NCBI GenBank assembly: GCA_946481265.1
Contig: CAMLNE010000205.1
Span: forward strand, 1-7,849
Direction of reading: 5' to 3'
DNA from: an uncultured Panacagrimonas sp.
GTDB lineage: Bacteria > Pseudomonadota > Gammaproteobacteria > Nevskiales > Nevskiaceae
Length of the DNA: 7,849 bases
How positions within the stretch are numbered: the stretch's first letter is position 1; every line of letters starts with the position of its first letter. The notes under the pieces are model-generated. The model did not search any database and was not told where the DNA came from. It was given only the letters and a program-made list of their open reading frames with translations. A program made the translations under genes and the position numbers. Positions 1,500-7,849 of the stretch are shown here, piece after piece.

Positions 1500-3116
1500 T
1501 CAGGAGAGCGCGAACCCCCTGTAGCCGGCGGCCGCGACCTCGTCGCACAGCTGCCGGTAGGCGCCGACACCGCCGATGTACGGCGTGAAGATCTTCGGCT
1601 TGCCGGGCACGTTGGCGCCGCTGTACCAGGCGTCGCCGCGCGGCACCAGGGTCGCGTTGGCGACCTCGTTGACATGGGCGACCCACTGCTCCTGTCCTTC
1701 CGGCGTGGCGGCGATCGTCTTCAGGCCCTTCTTCTTCATGTGGCCCAGGCAGCCGGCGATCCACTCCACGTGCTGCTCGATCGACACCAGCACGTTGCTG
1801 AACACCGACGGGCTGCCCGGACCGGTCACGGTGAACAGGTTCGGGAAGCCGGCGATCATCAGGCCCATCATCGTCCTGGCGCCCTCGGCCCAGGAGTCCT
1901 GTAGGCGCACGCCATCGCGGCCGCGGATATCCATCGCCAGCAGCGCGCCGGTCATGGCGTCGTAGCCGGTGGCGAACACCAGGCAGTCGAGCGGCTCGAA
2001 GCCGTCGCGCAGCTGCACGCCGCCGGCGGTGACGCGCTCGATCGGGTTGGTGCGCAGATTGCGCAGCGTCACGTTGGGGCGGTTGAAGGTCTCGTAGTAG
2101 TCGGTGTCGATGCACATCCGCCGCGACCCGACATATTGCTCGGTCGGGATCAGCTGATCCGCCAGCGCCGGGTCCTTGATGCGGGCGCGCAGGCGTTGCT
2201 CGAGATAGTCCTGCACCGTGCGGTTGGAGTTCTCGTCGATCAGGGTGTCGCCGAAGGACACCATCATCGCGAACGGCAGGCCCTTGTCGTAGCAGTTGTC
2301 GTAGATGCGCCGACGCTCGGCGTCGGAGACGTCGAAGGCCGACGGCGCGAACAGGGGCGACGGGATTCCCACCGGGTGCGCGCGCGCCTGGGCGCGCAGG
2401 GCGTCGTAGCCGGCCCGCACGGTCTCGCGATCCGCATCGTCCAGCGGCCGGTTCTTCGCCGGCAGGGTGTAGCTCGGCGTGCGCTGGAACACGGTGAGGT
2501 GTGCGGCCTGCCGGGCGAGGATCGGGATCACCTGGATGCCGGACGATCCCGTGCCGATCACGCCGACGCGCTTGCCGCTGAAATCCACCGGCTGCTCGGG
2601 CCAGCGGGCCGTGTGGTAGACCTCGCCGCCGAAATCGGCGAGGCCCGGGATGTTCACGTCCTTGGGCACGGTCAGGCAGCCGGTGGCCATCACCACGAAG
2701 CGCGCGCGGCAGCTGCCGATGCGGTCCGCGGTGACCTTCCACAGGCCGGCCGTCTCGTCGTAATGCGCCTTGCGCACGCGCGCGTCGAAGTCGATGTCGC
2801 GGCGCAGGTCGTAGCGCTCCGCCACGTGCCTGGCGTACTTCAGGATGTCGGGCTGCGCGGAGTAGCGCTCCGGCCAGTCCCACTCCTTCTGCAGTTCCGG
2901 ATCGAACGAGTACGAGTACTGCATGCTCTCGACGTCGCAACGCAGTCCCGGATAGCGGTTCCAGTACCAGGTACCGCCGACGTCCGACCCCGCCTCGAGG
3001 ACGTGGGCCTTCAGGCCGAGACGCCGGCACTGGATGAGCATGTACATGCCGGCAAAGCCGGCGCCGACGATCAGGACGTCGTAATCGCTGTGCGGAACGG
3101 AAGCGGTGGGCTGCAT
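1500..3116 (-). CDS. Type I Baeyer-Villiger monooxygenase (FAD, NADPH), canonical
   Basis: This encodes a 538-residue flavoprotein expected to insert one oxygen atom next to a ketone, giving an ester or lactone. The FAD-binding GAGFAG is at 18-23, followed by GGTWYWNRYPG (47-57). Asp61 follows, equivalent to the Asp that pairs with the active-site Arg in phenylacetone monooxygenase. The Baeyer-Villiger fingerprint FxGxxxHxxxWP is exact at 162-173 with His168, and the NADP-binding GTGSSG is at 188-193. Arg332-Arg333 stand where Lys-Arg is usual; Arg333 is the expected peroxyflavin-stabilising Arg. The C-terminus keeps the family's NVPGKP and GYRGFALS blocks. The start at 3116 is set by AGGAGG 7 nt upstream; the frame stays open to 3317 without a comparable site. 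The gene converges on the epoxide-hydrolase-like gene and diverges from a second monooxygenase. Family confidence is high. The substrate is unknown; a cyclic terpenoid or alicyclic ketone is inference from context. Confidence 0.93.
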   Translation of the reverse strand: MQPTASVPHSDYDVLIVGAGFAGMYMLIQCRRLGLKAHVLEAGSDVGGTWYWNRYPGLRCDVESMQYSYSFDPELQKEWDWPERYSAQPDILKYARHVAERYDLRRDIDFDARVRKAHYDETAGLWKVTADRIGSCRARFVVMATGCLTVPKDVNIPGLADFGGEVYHTARWPEQPVDFSGKRVGVIGTGSSGIQVIPILARQAAHLTVFQRTPSYTLPAKNRPLDDADRETVRAGYDALRAQARAHPVGIPSPLFAPSAFDVSDAERRRIYDNCYDKGLPFAMMVSFGDTLIDENSNRTVQDYLEQRLRARIKDPALADQLIPTEQYVGSRRMCIDTDYYETFNRPNVTLRNLRTNPIERVTAGGVQLRDGFEPLDCLVFATGYDAMTGALLAMDIRGRDGVRLQDSWAEGARTMMGLMIAGFPNLFTVTGPGSPSVFSNVLVSIEQHVEWIAGCLGHMKKKGLKTIAATPEGQEQWVAHVNEVANATLVPRGDAWYSGANVPGKPKIFTPYIGGVGAYRQLCDEVAAAGYRGFALS

Positions 3117-3652: not shown

Positions 3653-3752
3653 GGTCCGTCCGACGCTCGCGCGGATGTCAATGTGATCGAACTCCTGCCG
3701 ACCGGCGTATCGAGTCCCTGGGCTCGCTTGGATGGAACGGCAGACCCAAAAG

Positions 3753-3764: not shown

Positions 3765-5417
3765 ATGACGCAGCAAGTCGTGGCGGGGCACCAGCCGGAA
3801 TGGACGGATGTGCTCATCATCGGAGCCGGTTTCGGCGGCATGCGCATGCTCCAGGAATGCCGGGAGCTGGGCCTGCAGGCGACGATCCTCGAAGCCGGCA
3901 CGGATCTGGGCGGGACCTGGTACTGGAACCGCTATCCCGGCGCCCGTACGGACACGGAGAGCTGGGCGTATTGCTTCTACTTCTCGGAAAAGCTCAACCA
4001 GAACTACACCTTCAAGGAGCGCTACGCGACCTGGGACAGCTCGCTCGACTACCTCAACTATGCGGCGGACGCACTGGACATGCGCCGTCACATGCGGTTC
4101 GAGCGCCGCGTGACCTCGGCGGTCTACATCCCGTCCGAAAACGTCTGGGAAGCGCATACGGACAAGGGCGAGACCTACCGCTGCCGCTACCTGGTCAGTG
4201 CCAGCGGCGTGCTGTCCGTCGCCTACAAGCCGCCGTTCAGGAATTCGGAAGCCTTCAAGGGCGAGGTCTACCTGACAGCCAACTGGCCCAAGGAGCATGT
4301 CGATTTCGCGGGCAAGCGCGTGGCGGTCATCGGCACCGGCGCCAGCGGCGTGCAGGTCATCCCCATCGTGGCGCATGAGGCGGCTCAGGTAACGGTCTTC
4401 CAGCGCACTCCGAATTACGTCCTGCCGGCACGAAACCATCCGATCACGGACGCCAGGCAGCGGGAGATCCGGCGCAACTTTCACCAGATGGTCGCGCAGT
4501 GCCATAACCAGGTCTTCGCGTTCCCGATGACCGACTCGAAGGTTGCGCTCAAGGACGTTCCGCCCGAACAGCAGCAACGGGTGCTCGAATGGGGCTGGGA
4601 GATCGGCGGGTTCCAGTTCGCGTTCGAAACCTTCAGCGACATCCTGATCGATCGTGAGTCCAACGCCATCGTCGCGGAATTCGTGCGCCGGAAGATCCGC
4701 TCGATCGTCAAGGATCCGAAGACGGCGGAACGGCTCTGTCCGGACTATGCGTTGTTTGCCAAGCGTCCGCCGCTGGGACACTTCTATTTCGAGACATTCA
4801 ACCGGCCGAACGTGAGCCTGGTGGACATCAGCCAGGATCCCATCGAGGCCATGACCGCGACCGGTCTGAAAACCCGCCACCACGAATACGGCGATTTCGA
4901 GACCGTGGTCTACGCCACGGGTTTCGACGGCGGCACCGGGGCGCTGGTCAAGATCGACGTGCGCGGCATCGACAACCAGTCGATCGCGGAGAACTGGCGC
5001 AAGTCGCTTCAGACGCAGTTCGGCATCTGCATGAACGGCTTCCCGAACTTCTTCATGATCTCCGGTCCGCAGGCACCGTTTGCCAACACACCGATGATCG
5101 TGGATCGCGCCGTGACGTGGATCGGCGACTGCATTCGCCACCTCAACGCCACGGGCGCCGCGGTGGTCGAGGCGCGGCCGGAGGCCTGTGAGCGCTGGAC
5201 CCAGCATGTCCAGGAAACCATGAACATGACCGTTCTGGCCGATGGGGCCGGGGTGAATTCCTGGTTCCTGGGGAAGAACATCCCCGGCAAACTGACGGCG
5301 CCGCTCTTCTTCTTCGGTGGTGCGAACAACTACTTCCTGGAACTCAAGAAGGAGTCCGATGGCGGCTTCAAGGGTATGCAGTTCCGGCGAGCTTCGATCG
5401 ATGCCGCGGCCGCCTAA
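3765..5417 (+). CDS. Divergent Baeyer-Villiger-type flavin monooxygenase, fingerprint His replaced by Leu
   Basis: This encodes a 550-residue homologue of the divergent neighbour. The FAD motif GAGFGG is at 20-25, GGTWYWNRYPG at 49-59, Asp63 as the partner of the active-site Arg, and the NADP motif GTGASG at 190-195. Lys333-Arg334 is the usual coenzyme/peroxyflavin pair, followed by FETFNRPNV, and ATGFDGGTGAL is present. The Baeyer-Villiger fingerprint at 164-175 reads F-x-G-x-x-x-L-x-x-x-W-P: residue 170 is Leu (CTG, 4272-4274) where His is expected. The linker before it also lacks the usual Pro-Gly, and the C-terminus (LFFFGG, KKESDGGFKG) departs from the canonical GY-GF ending. The rest of the frame is intact and well spaced, so this looks like a functional enzyme of changed chemistry or an unusual subfamily, not a decaying copy. 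The substrate is unknown. It has its own promoter-like box and a good ribosome site. Confidence 0.9.
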   Translation: MTQQVVAGHQPEWTDVLIIGAGFGGMRMLQECRELGLQATILEAGTDLGGTWYWNRYPGARTDTESWAYCFYFSEKLNQNYTFKERYATWDSSLDYLNYAADALDMRRHMRFERRVTSAVYIPSENVWEAHTDKGETYRCRYLVSASGVLSVAYKPPFRNSEAFKGEVYLTANWPKEHVDFAGKRVAVIGTGASGVQVIPIVAHEAAQVTVFQRTPNYVLPARNHPITDARQREIRRNFHQMVAQCHNQVFAFPMTDSKVALKDVPPEQQQRVLEWGWEIGGFQFAFETFSDILIDRESNAIVAEFVRRKIRSIVKDPKTAERLCPDYALFAKRPPLGHFYFETFNRPNVSLVDISQDPIEAMTATGLKTRHHEYGDFETVVYATGFDGGTGALVKIDVRGIDNQSIAENWRKSLQTQFGICMNGFPNFFMISGPQAPFANTPMIVDRAVTWIGDCIRHLNATGAAVVEARPEACERWTQHVQETMNMTVLADGAGVNSWFLGKNIPGKLTAPLFFFGGANNYFLELKKESDGGFKGMQFRRASIDAAAA

Positions 5418-5668
5418 GTTGTGCGAATCCCCGGAGATGCCGATCGGATGGTCCTGAAGAGCGGCCGATGCGGACCCCGCATGGCGCAGTCCCGGTTACG
5501 ACGATCTGATTCGTTGTGCCCGGCCCGACGCCTCACCATAATCGCGACGTGCTCGTGACAGCGGGATACGAGCGCGACCCCGAGCCGATACCCGCTACGC
5601 CCGGCGGTGGGGACGGACGTCCGCTGCCAAAGCCCCTCAAGACCCGCTCGATCGTTCCGACGCCCGCC
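5418..5668. other. Intergenic region before the TetR-type regulator
   Basis: These 251 bp hold a candidate promoter (5514-5542) and a small 6-bp-stem hairpin (ATGCGG/CCGCAT, 5468-5482). The regulator's frame is open back to a GTG at 5516, so part of this stretch could be coding if an upstream start is used. The residues it would add are Pro/Gly-rich and unlike a TetR N-terminus. Confidence 0.45.
5514..5542 (+). promoter_or_regulatory. Candidate promoter of the TetR-type regulator
   Basis: TTGTGC (5514-5519), a 17-nt spacer and CATAAT (5537-5542, 5/6 to the -10 consensus). If real, transcription starts near 5549, which would exclude the GTG at 5516 as start codon. No CAGYRCTG dyad is present here. 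Confidence 0.35.
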
Positions 5669-6382
5669 ATGAAACAATCTCCCGCCGCGATGAAGGCCCG
5701 AGCCAACCTGCAGCGCCGCAAGGAGATCGGACTCGAACGTCGTGGCCGGACCCGCAGCCGGCTTCTGGCGGCGGCGGCACAGGTGCTGGCCGAGCACGGT
5801 GAGAAGAAGGCAACGATCGACGATTTCATCCAGGCTGCCGGGGTGGCGCGCGGGACCTTCTACAACTACTACCAGACCCGCGGCGAGATCCTCGAGGATC
5901 TATGGGCCGAGATCGGCCGCAATCCATTCCTGGTCATCCAGAAGGCGTGCGCGCCCATCAAGGACCCGGCCGAGCGGCTGGTCACCAAGACCCGGCTGAT
6001 CCTCAAGACCGCGCAGGACAACAGCACGTGGGGTTGGGTGGTTTTCGCGCTGTCGCTCGACATCACGACGGTCAACGCGGATCTGCTGGCATTCCCGAGA
6101 CCCGACCTGGAGGAGGGGCTGCGCAAGGGTCGCTTCAAGTTCGATGACATCCATGCCGCCAAGGACCTGGTCGTGGGCGCATGCCGCACGGCGCTGCATG
6201 CGCTGTTGATCGAAGAACGTTCCAAGGATTATCCGGCGGCGCTCTCCGCCTTGATGCTGCGTTCGCTTGGCGTCTCGGCGACCGAAGCGCAGCTACTGGT
6301 CAAGCGCCCGCTTCCGATCGGGCGTGCAGCGGTGCCAGGAACGGTAAACGGCGCGGCGTTCAGCACCTCTGACGCGCTGTAG
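5669..6382 (+). CDS. TetR/AcrR-family transcriptional regulator
   Basis: This encodes 237 residues if started at the ATG at 5669. The N-terminal helix-turn-helix spans about 28-72: RSRLLAAAAQVLAEHG as helix 1, ATIDDFIQAAGV for helices 2-3, and ARGTFYNYYQTRGEILEDL, the classic TetR recognition helix and helix 4 with F-Y-x-Y-Y. The rest is an alpha-helical ligand-binding and dimerisation domain, diverged as usual. Residues 9-31 are rich in Lys and Arg and may add DNA contacts. The start is uncertain: no Shine-Dalgarno site precedes 5669 or the inner ATG at 5690, and the frame is open to a GTG at 5516. Its position between the second monooxygenase and the linalool-dehydratase-like gene, on the same strand, suggests it controls them as a ligand-responsive repressor. 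That is inference. Confidence 0.85.
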   Translation: MKQSPAAMKARANLQRRKEIGLERRGRTRSRLLAAAAQVLAEHGEKKATIDDFIQAAGVARGTFYNYYQTRGEILEDLWAEIGRNPFLVIQKACAPIKDPAERLVTKTRLILKTAQDNSTWGWVVFALSLDITTVNADLLAFPRPDLEEGLRKGRFKFDDIHAAKDLVVGACRTALHALLIEERSKDYPAALSALMLRSLGVSATEAQLLVKRPLPIGRAAVPGTVNGAAFSTSDAL

Positions 6383-6406
6383 GGTCGCCGGCCCCGTTCA
6401 GCGCGT
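6372..6406 (+). terminator. Possible weak terminator overlapping the regulator's stop codon
   Basis: ACGCGCTG (6372-6379) pairs exactly with CAGCGCGT (6399-6406); within the 19-nt loop a GGG (6382-6384) can pair with CCC (6392-6394). There is no U-tract and the stem includes the last codons, so this is a weak call. Confidence 0.25.
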
Positions 6407-6422
6407 GGATAGCACGGTCCTC

Positions 6423-6456
6423 TCAAATTGACATTATTCGACCAGTTCGGATACGG
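6423..6456 (+). promoter_or_regulatory. Candidate promoter of the linalool-dehydratase-like gene
   Basis: A perfect -35 TTGACA (6428-6433) inside TCAAATTGACA, the same 11 bases as at 3601. The -10 is poor: GATACG or ATACGG around 6450-6456 is the best at 16-17-nt spacing. The weak -10 may mean an activator is needed. The box lies 174 nt before the start codon at 6597; its twin lies 164 nt before the second monooxygenase start. Confidence 0.45.
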
Positions 6457-6457
6457 T

Positions 6458-6498
6458 GGCCAGTACTGGTCCGTGATGGAAACCGGCCAGTGCTGATC
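6458..6498. promoter_or_regulatory. Tandem operator-like repeats (CAGYRCTG sites 2 and 3)
   Basis: GGCCAGTACTGGTC (6458-6471) and GGCCAGTGCTGATC (6485-6498) agree at 12 of 14 positions and are 27 bp apart. The first holds a perfect 10-bp dyad, CCAGTACTGG (6460-6469), at the predicted transcription start. Further upstream GACCAGT (6440-6446) forms an inverted repeat with ACTGGTC (6465-6471) across 18 bp. This is the arrangement expected of a repressor operator. TetR-type binding is inference. Confidence 0.45.
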
Positions 6499-6596
6499 GC
6501 ACGACAAGGAGCCGCGGCGCGTCACCTGCACGACGCGCCCCGGTGCAGCCAAGCGGCCCGTCCGGGGCCGATCATCTACGCGAGCACAGGCAGATC

Positions 6597-7849
6597 ATGA
6601 ACCTTCCGCTGAGTCAGCCTTCCCATGACGCCCGTCCCCGTCATGCGGCCTCCAAGCTCGATGCCAAGCAGATCGGGAGTCTTCGCCAGATCGAGAACAT
6701 CGCCGGCCAACTCGACGGCGAATGGACCTTGATGGGAGGACGCTGCGGGCTTCAGGAGGACTTCGGCGCCTTCCGATATCAGCTCGCCTATGCGGGCCTT
6801 GCACTTGCCCTGGCGCATTACCATCGCCTGCCCAACGCGCCGGGCGTGTTCAAGCCGATCTTCCAGAACCTGATCCGGAAGATGATGCACCCGGGCGTCT
6901 GGATGTACTGGCACTTCGTCAGTCAGGGCGGCGCGCTGACCAACGGACACCTGTGGGGAAAGCTTCCGGCCCTGTGGGACCCGGTGAAGAAGGACAACAT
7001 CATGTTCAGCGCGTACCTGACGCTGCTGCCCATGCTGTACAACTATCTGTTCGACGACGATCGCTACGCCCAACCGGGGGCACTGACGATGTCGATCAAT
7101 CCGCTCACCTTCGGTGACCGGATGGTGTTCGAGTATGACCAGCACACCCTGAGCGACACGATCTACTGGCAGATGGTCCAGAACGGCTACCTGGGCGTCG
7201 CATGTGAGCCCAGCTGCGTGTTCCAAATCTGCAACCAGCCCTCCATCCTGTCGTTCCGCGTCGAGGATTTCATCAAAGGCACGTCGCGCGCCGAGGAGGT
7301 CACCGAGGGCTACCTCAAGGCATGGCAGGAATTCGGAATCCTCGATGCGGGCGACCACTTCATGGTCCATGTCGTGACCGACCTGAAGATGCCGATCCCA
7401 AACGCGCTGCCGTGGCTCTGGTCGGACGCGTGGCTGGCGGCCATGATGCACAGCTGGAATCCCGACTTCGTGCACGAGCATTACCCGCGGATGCTCCAGG
7501 AGTTCCTGATTCCGGGGCCGGATGACACCTGCGCGATCCGGCTGTGGGATCCGGTCGACGTGCGTGGCGTGAAGACCACCGCGGACACCGCCGACTTCGG
7601 GTGGGCGGCCGTGGCGGCGGCCGAACTGGGCGACGAGACCACGCTGCGCGGCTTGCTCGGACATGCCGATCGCTTCATGAATCCGACCTGGCGTGACGGC
7701 GGGCTGCACTACCCGCGCAACGACATGCGCTACGACGAACAAGGCATCCTGCGACTGGTCGAGCCGATCACCTCGAACACCCTGCTGCCGTTTGCGCGGC
7801 TGAACGTGCCCAGCGGTCTGCACACGTTCTACAACCAGCCGTGGTCGCG
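6597..7849 (+). CDS. Linalool dehydratase/isomerase family protein (cut off by window edge)
   Basis: 417 residues are visible and the frame is open at the edge. The protein resembles the alpha/alpha-barrel family founded by Castellaniella linalool dehydratase-isomerase, which converts linalool to myrcene and isomerises geraniol. The best block is GVACEPSCVFQICNQ (200-214), matching the founder's IVCEPDNYFVQCN: Cys203 and Cys212 correspond, nine apart, to its catalytic Cys171 and Cys180. DNIMFSAYL (133-141) matches ENIMYKGHL, placing Tyr140 where the founder has catalytic His129. The founder's Asp39 and Tyr45 cannot be placed with confidence. The founder is exported, but here the N-terminus has no hydrophobic signal segment, so a cytoplasmic protein is likely. 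The start is the first ATG; it has only a weak AGG site, and a GTG at 6543 is an in-frame alternative. Comparison with the founder is from memory, so exact alignment is tentative. Hydratase, dehydratase or isomerase action on an allylic alcohol is plausible; the substrate is unknown. Confidence 0.75.
   Translation, partial: MNLPLSQPSHDARPRHAASKLDAKQIGSLRQIENIAGQLDGEWTLMGGRCGLQEDFGAFRYQLAYAGLALALAHYHRLPNAPGVFKPIFQNLIRKMMHPGVWMYWHFVSQGGALTNGHLWGKLPALWDPVKKDNIMFSAYLTLLPMLYNYLFDDDRYAQPGALTMSINPLTFGDRMVFEYDQHTLSDTIYWQMVQNGYLGVACEPSCVFQICNQPSILSFRVEDFIKGTSRAEEVTEGYLKAWQEFGILDAGDHFMVHVVTDLKMPIPNALPWLWSDAWLAAMMHSWNPDFVHEHYPRMLQEFLIPGPDDTCAIRLWDPVDVRGVKTTADTADFGWAAVAAAELGDETTLRGLLGHADRFMNPTWRDGGLHYPRNDMRYDEQGILRLVEPITSNTLLPFARLNVPSGLHTFYNQPWS

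Follow-up and report, generated by a model that had tools for sequence, protein, structure and literature searches.

The usual route of Baeyer–Villiger monooxygenases (BVMOs), established for PAMO and CHMO, runs through a peroxyflavin and then a Criegee intermediate. Here we analyse a stretch of DNA of 7,849 nucleotides from an uncultured Panacagrimonas sp. (contig CAMLNE010000205.1; ‘the window’), which carries a gene, ‘Q’, for a type I BVMO-like protein. Q has leucine at position 170, where the fingerprint motif of the family, FxGxxxHxxxW[P/D], has histidine. Judged from its sequence, Q is probably a functional type I BVMO, dependent on flavin adenine dinucleotide (FAD) and reduced nicotinamide adenine dinucleotide phosphate (NADPH), from a branch that lost the fingerprint His at its base and for which the usual chemistry is the likeliest.

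The fingerprint motif lies on a linker between domains (PMC9044951, PMC3762062). It serves as an entry test for type I BVMOs, in PHI-BLAST patterns and in curation: the His pattern was required, or used to search, in three surveys (PMC4498894, PMC7570161 and PMC9044951), the last of which calls the motif a ‘super-hallmark’, yet says that it can be degenerate (data not shown there). BVMOAf1, from Aspergillus fumigatus, is a natural type I BVMO with Gln in place of the fingerprint His; it is active and enantioselective, and makes both lactones of bicycloheptenone (PMC3762062). The same paper allowed an H/Q substitution when curating nine A. fumigatus candidates, and cites Riebel 2012 for some rhodococcal BVMOs that lack the full motif.

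The reading frame of Q runs intact from the ATG at 3765 to the stop codon at 5415–5417, and AAGAGGAGAAGCAGC, just ahead of that ATG, could plausibly serve for ribosome binding. The earliest in-frame ATG is at 3732; numbering from there would move by 11. The segment GGTWYWNRYPGARTD agrees with the published type I BVMO pattern [A/G]GxWxxxx[F/Y]P[G/M]xxxD, and both Rossmann motifs agree with published patterns. The AlphaFold2 (AF2) model has the BVMO fold, with a predicted local distance difference test (pLDDT) score of 91, and the catalytic Asp and Arg are present as Asp63 and Arg334. The exact fingerprint does not occur in Q, Leu standing where His is expected; nor does the motif end in Tyr or Phe, as in class B FMOs (FxGxxxHxxx[Y/F]), Trp174–Pro175 being found there instead. 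The original prediction, made from the letters of the window, had described Leu at the fingerprint His of an otherwise intact enzyme, with the Rossmann motifs, Asp63 and Lys333–Arg334 kept and the frame undisturbed, next to an opposite-strand neighbour (‘N’) with the exact His motif, FGGEVYHTARWP; it had added that CAC or CAT to CTG needs two base changes. All of this is confirmed.

The substitution is genuine and conserved. Two Panacagrimonas orthologues (in loci L001 and L002) also have CTG at this codon, and between Q and the orthologue in L002 there are 187 synonymous and 58 non-synonymous codon differences, as expected under purifying selection. Together these rule out the sequencing error that had been called unlikely from the start. 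His is missing in 119 of the 120 proteins nearest to Q (the best 120 of 7995 passing), where residue 170 is Val in 36, Leu in 33, Gln in 20, Met in 16, Ile in 10, Lys in two, and Ser, Arg and His in one each. Sampled relatives with at least 60% identity all lack it (19/19), and all have an aliphatic residue (Leu 12, Ile 3, Met 2, Val 2). The canonical neighbour N provides a contrast, with His in 106 of its 120 nearest proteins (the best 120 of 7999 passing). A one-off mutation, a decaying gene or a sequencing error has the departure from the motif in its favour and nothing more. Against it stand these homologues, the shared CTG codon, the purifying selection and the intact frame; we give it next to no credence, and reject error and one-off mutation outright.

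Q belongs to a clade of 126 sequences (Q itself, the 120 nearest proteins and five loci). They were collected for their similarity to a query without His, and more distant His-bearing members may exist. Six proteins (P0121–P0126) were excluded from every count, L056 was excluded as short (460 residues), and so were L033 and L049, which duplicate P0014 and P0133. In a FastTree phylogeny of 326 sequences, from whose alignment the focal column had been removed, the clade has support of 1.0, as confirmed on the raw tree, and includes three members with His. In an IQ-TREE phylogeny of 74 sequences, among them one PAMO and one CHMO chain, it is represented by 39 sequences (three with His), its split has support of 97.5 (SH-aLRT) and 100 (UFBoot), and it is nested among the type I BVMOs, where its sisters carry His. 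A two-state model places the probability of His at 0.94 one node outside the clade and at 0.057 at its base, which points to one loss; the few members with His have regained or retained it. At the root the same model gives only 0.086, many non-His sequences branching early and the outgroup branch being long. The His or non-His state changes 19 times on the tree of 326 sequences, whereas each of 200 label shuffles needed at least 96 changes, which puts the distribution beyond chance. Among the 200 sequences outside the clade, 44 are also without His, so its loss is not confined to this branch. By their source names, clade members come from proteobacteria, actinobacteria and some fungi. The suggestion that Leu170 marks a subfamily is thus borne out by homologues and trees. 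Fixation of Leu in the clade, for which the original prediction proposed a check, holds only in part: Leu is the most frequent residue among the nearest relatives (12/19), the others having Met, Ile or Val instead.

What the clade keeps is as informative as what it has lost. Asp63, Arg334, Gly166, Trp174 and Pro175 are present in all 126 members, and Phe164 and Lys333 in 124. The entropy at position 170 is 1.42 bits outside the clade but 2.50 bits within it, close to the values at two variable positions of the motif, 165 and 173; His has no conserved substitute, and the constraint itself is gone. A new conserved residue in its place was considered and rejected, because 170 varies within the clade like the ‘x’ positions of the motif. 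The 123 non-His members bear marks elsewhere: Arg27 (99%), Glu31 (98%), Thr62 and Trp67 (both 100%), Phe287 (100%), Gly338 (91%) and Gln436 (93%), where 156 His-bearing sequences outside have mainly Tyr, Arg/Gln/Lys, Cys, Met/Tyr/Val, a gap, Asp and Gly, respectively. Strict coupling of the His loss with the change of Tyr27 to Arg was also rejected, since the three in-clade His members read at position 27 (L007, P0046 and L103) keep the clade-type Arg.

The activity of Q, its substrate and what position 170 does mechanically are inferred. NADPH would reduce the FAD of Q, and O2 would then yield a C4a-peroxyflavin, which NADP+, Arg334 and Asp63 would help to hold. The peroxyflavin would attack a ketone, in nature perhaps a terpenoid ketone, and the Criegee intermediate would rearrange, so that Q would follow the usual route from ketone to ester or lactone. 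The canonical His, on the linker of the two nucleotide-binding domains, is thought to aid their relative movement rather than the chemistry. In the clade its place would be taken mostly by an aliphatic or Gln side chain, with residues 27, 31, 62, 67 and others changing alongside, and the linker His has most likely become dispensable in Q's branch.

A hydrolase following a BVMO is the usual route by which the ester or lactone is opened. We sampled 12 of 435 matching plasmid records, all within the 17 best (H7 and H9–H12 were left out); they carry 12 non-His clade genes, in Rhodococcus and Dietzia, with Gln, Val, Asn, Ser, Met or Leu at 170. An alpha/beta hydrolase gene directly adjoins six of these 12 on the same strand, compared with 12 of 147 other coding sequences there (P = 0.00055, a value only indicative because of near-duplicates among the 12 genes and regions rich in catabolic genes, in a set without a His-type control). 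In L095 the second BVMO gene, of the Gln type, overlaps the hydrolase gene by four bases. On a Panacagrimonas chromosome, an Abhydrolase_3 gene directly follows the gene of a clade member that has Arg at 170 (L005, within L091). The His-bearing clade gene in L103 also adjoins a hydrolase. BpfC/BpfD is a further BVMO–hydrolase case (PMC12724174). On the Dietzia plasmid pDK58 (L094, 4535–18435), a Val-type clade BVMO is accompanied by hydrolases, a mycofactocin-coupled short-chain dehydrogenase/reductase, acyl-CoA genes and an AtuA-like gene for the utilisation of acyclic terpenes, a combination that hints at terpenoid ketone catabolism.

Might the clade have switched its chemistry, to heteroatom oxygenation, hydroxylation or NADPH oxidase activity, with the His loss part of the switch? 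The many positions at which it differs from His-type enzymes (445 and 449 besides those above) would accord with this, as would the good activity of BVMOAf1 on sulfides (PMC3762062). So would the reported effects of mutating the His, which cut the efficiency of CHMO and inactivated HAPMO (cited within PMC3762062) and agree with the original prediction that changing it impairs studied BVMOs. We nevertheless think a switch unlikely, and the proposal that loss of His signals different chemistry finds no support: Asp63 and Arg334 are invariant, no new residue is conserved at 170, some relatives have hydrolase neighbours and the His-less BVMOAf1 is a true lactone former (PMC3762062). Distinctly unlikely, in our estimation, is that Q is an ordinary BVMO whose domain movement is tuned by the His loss, with an altered rate, coupling or affinity for NADPH that makes it slower, less well coupled or narrower in substrate range. 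It fits this idea that the motif lies on the linker, and that BVMOAf1 accepts four of 46 substrates, with a kcat of about 0.5 per second whatever the substrate (PMC3762062). Against it, the slowness of BVMOAf1 seems not to be tied to its Gln by experiment, and its KM for NADPH is low, below 5 μM (PMC3762062).

Several points weigh against our preferred reading, that Q is a working BVMO with the usual chemistry. The mutant CHMO and HAPMO, and the slow, selective BVMOAf1, are among them. BVMOAf1 moreover differs from Q in having Gln rather than Leu, in being fungal and in its extra C-terminal domain; it is likened to Q by description, its sequence standing outside the trees. In the PDB, Q is matched best by a PAMO mutant, with 439 bits, whereas even the 120th homologue reaches 630 bits, so no clade member appears to have been solved; among 49 PDB matches, the three chains whose His state was read (two PAMO mutants and Rhodococcus CHMO) all have His. 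No characterised clade member was found in the literature, most subscription papers lying outside the search. Half of the plasmid clade genes (6/12) have no hydrolase neighbour, and of the six hydrolases that in L102 is short, with 139 residues, and that in L106 is cut by the record end. Finally, there is no alpha/beta hydrolase among the six window genes scanned, nor in the subset of open reading frames (ORFs) scanned in L001 and L002.

The original prediction also asked whether relatives have the same neighbours, which is only partly the case (Table 1): the TetR and linalool dehydratase/isomerase-fold (Ldi) genes lie beside the Q gene in both other Panacagrimonas loci, but N is absent there, its matches being the Q gene itself. 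The order in L001 and L002 is Q, TetR, Ldi, a small ORF, SCO1/SenC and aldehyde dehydrogenase. Any functional tie of Q with the Ldi gene appears weak. TetR–Ldi–SCO occurs without a BVMO on an Agrobacterium vitis plasmid, the Nevskia-type relative of Q (68%) has no Ldi gene within the 19.9 kb of L090, and no BVMO gene lies in the Ldi regions of three other genomes (L115–L117, 13.7–19.9 kb).

Table 1. Features of Q and its neighbours in the window
Feature	Position	Strand	Evidence or detail
His-less type I BVMO-like coding sequence (Q, 550 residues)	3765..5417	+	ORF, FMO-like Pfam match, homologues, AF2 model (pLDDT 91)
Rossmann motif 1, GAGFGG (FAD), residues 20–25	3822..3839	+	
BVMO motif 1, GGTWYWNRYPGARTD, residues 49–63 including Asp63	3909..3953	+	
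Fingerprint FKGEVYLTANWP, residues 164–175	4254..4289	+	DNA TTCAAGGGCGAGGTCTACCTGACAGCCAACTGGCCC
CTG codon, Leu170 (published motif: His)	4272..4274	+	
Rossmann motif 2, GTGASG (NADP), residues 190–195	4332..4349	+	
Lys333–Arg334	4761..4766	+	Arg334 aligned to catalytic Arg
Canonical BVMO neighbour (N, 538 residues), with FGGEVYHTARWP	1500..3116	-	ORF (residues encoded by 1503..3116), exact His motif, homologues
TetR-family regulator, start uncertain	5516..6382	+	Domain match; kept in L001 and L002
Ldi-fold protein, continues past the window end	6597..7849	+	PF18566, 353 bits; PDB linalool dehydratase/isomerase match

The TetR–Ldi–SCO1 module spans 5516–7849 in the window, 9769–13595 in L001 and 8168–11014 in L101; between the A. 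vitis plasmid and Panacagrimonas its proteins are 49% (TetR), 50% (Ldi) and 47% (SCO) identical, and the module pairs an Ldi-fold with a SCO1/SenC protein. In L090 (10365–13869) a second BVMO comes after the relative of Q that has Ile at 170; its motif, YRGIQAYTSQWP, likewise lacks the His and has Tyr in its place. Class B monooxygenase-like paralogues form a large set in the genomes of L001 and L002 (G001 and G002), with 37 and 39 matches to Q, some of which are fragments of a single gene. In window order, two genes lie upstream of the canonical BVMO: one for a small limonene-epoxide-hydrolase/SnoaL-like protein (835–1218) and, adjoining it, a VOC-family gene (85–582).

His is absent in 33 of 84 family loci (11/30, 8/25 and 14/29 in the two Panacagrimonas genomes, their family and their phylum, respectively), a sample biased as the best matches to His-less Q and not an unbiased rate; surveys filtered by the motif would therefore under-count the family. 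It is possible, and we put it forward tentatively, that a large branch of type I BVMOs dropped the His in its common ancestor and rebuilt the hinge, with mostly an aliphatic residue or Gln at 170 and with Arg27, Glu31, Thr62 and Trp67, and that its members are active BVMOs overlooked by motif mining. If so, the hinge of the clade would show the His to be a lineage-specific solution rather than a requirement. If His-less enzymes work, published counts and the mining of biocatalysts miss part of the family, and the need for the His in domain movement could be tested on natural enzymes instead of crippled mutants.

Compared with PAMO and CHMO, which are type I, class B enzymes, Q has Leu for His together with the clade-type residues Arg27, Glu31, Thr62, Trp67, Phe287, Gly338 and Gln436. 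The rhodococcal BVMOs of Riebel 2012 have, like Q, an incomplete motif, going by the description in the citing paper (PMC3762062), and Rhodococcus plasmids carry members of Q's own clade, with the varied residues at 170 listed above. BVMOAf1 resembles Q in that it is a natural type I BVMO whose fingerprint lacks the His, and its formation of lactones is proven. With such enzymes already in print, Q and its relatives would correct the working definition of type I BVMOs rather than add a new kind of enzyme.
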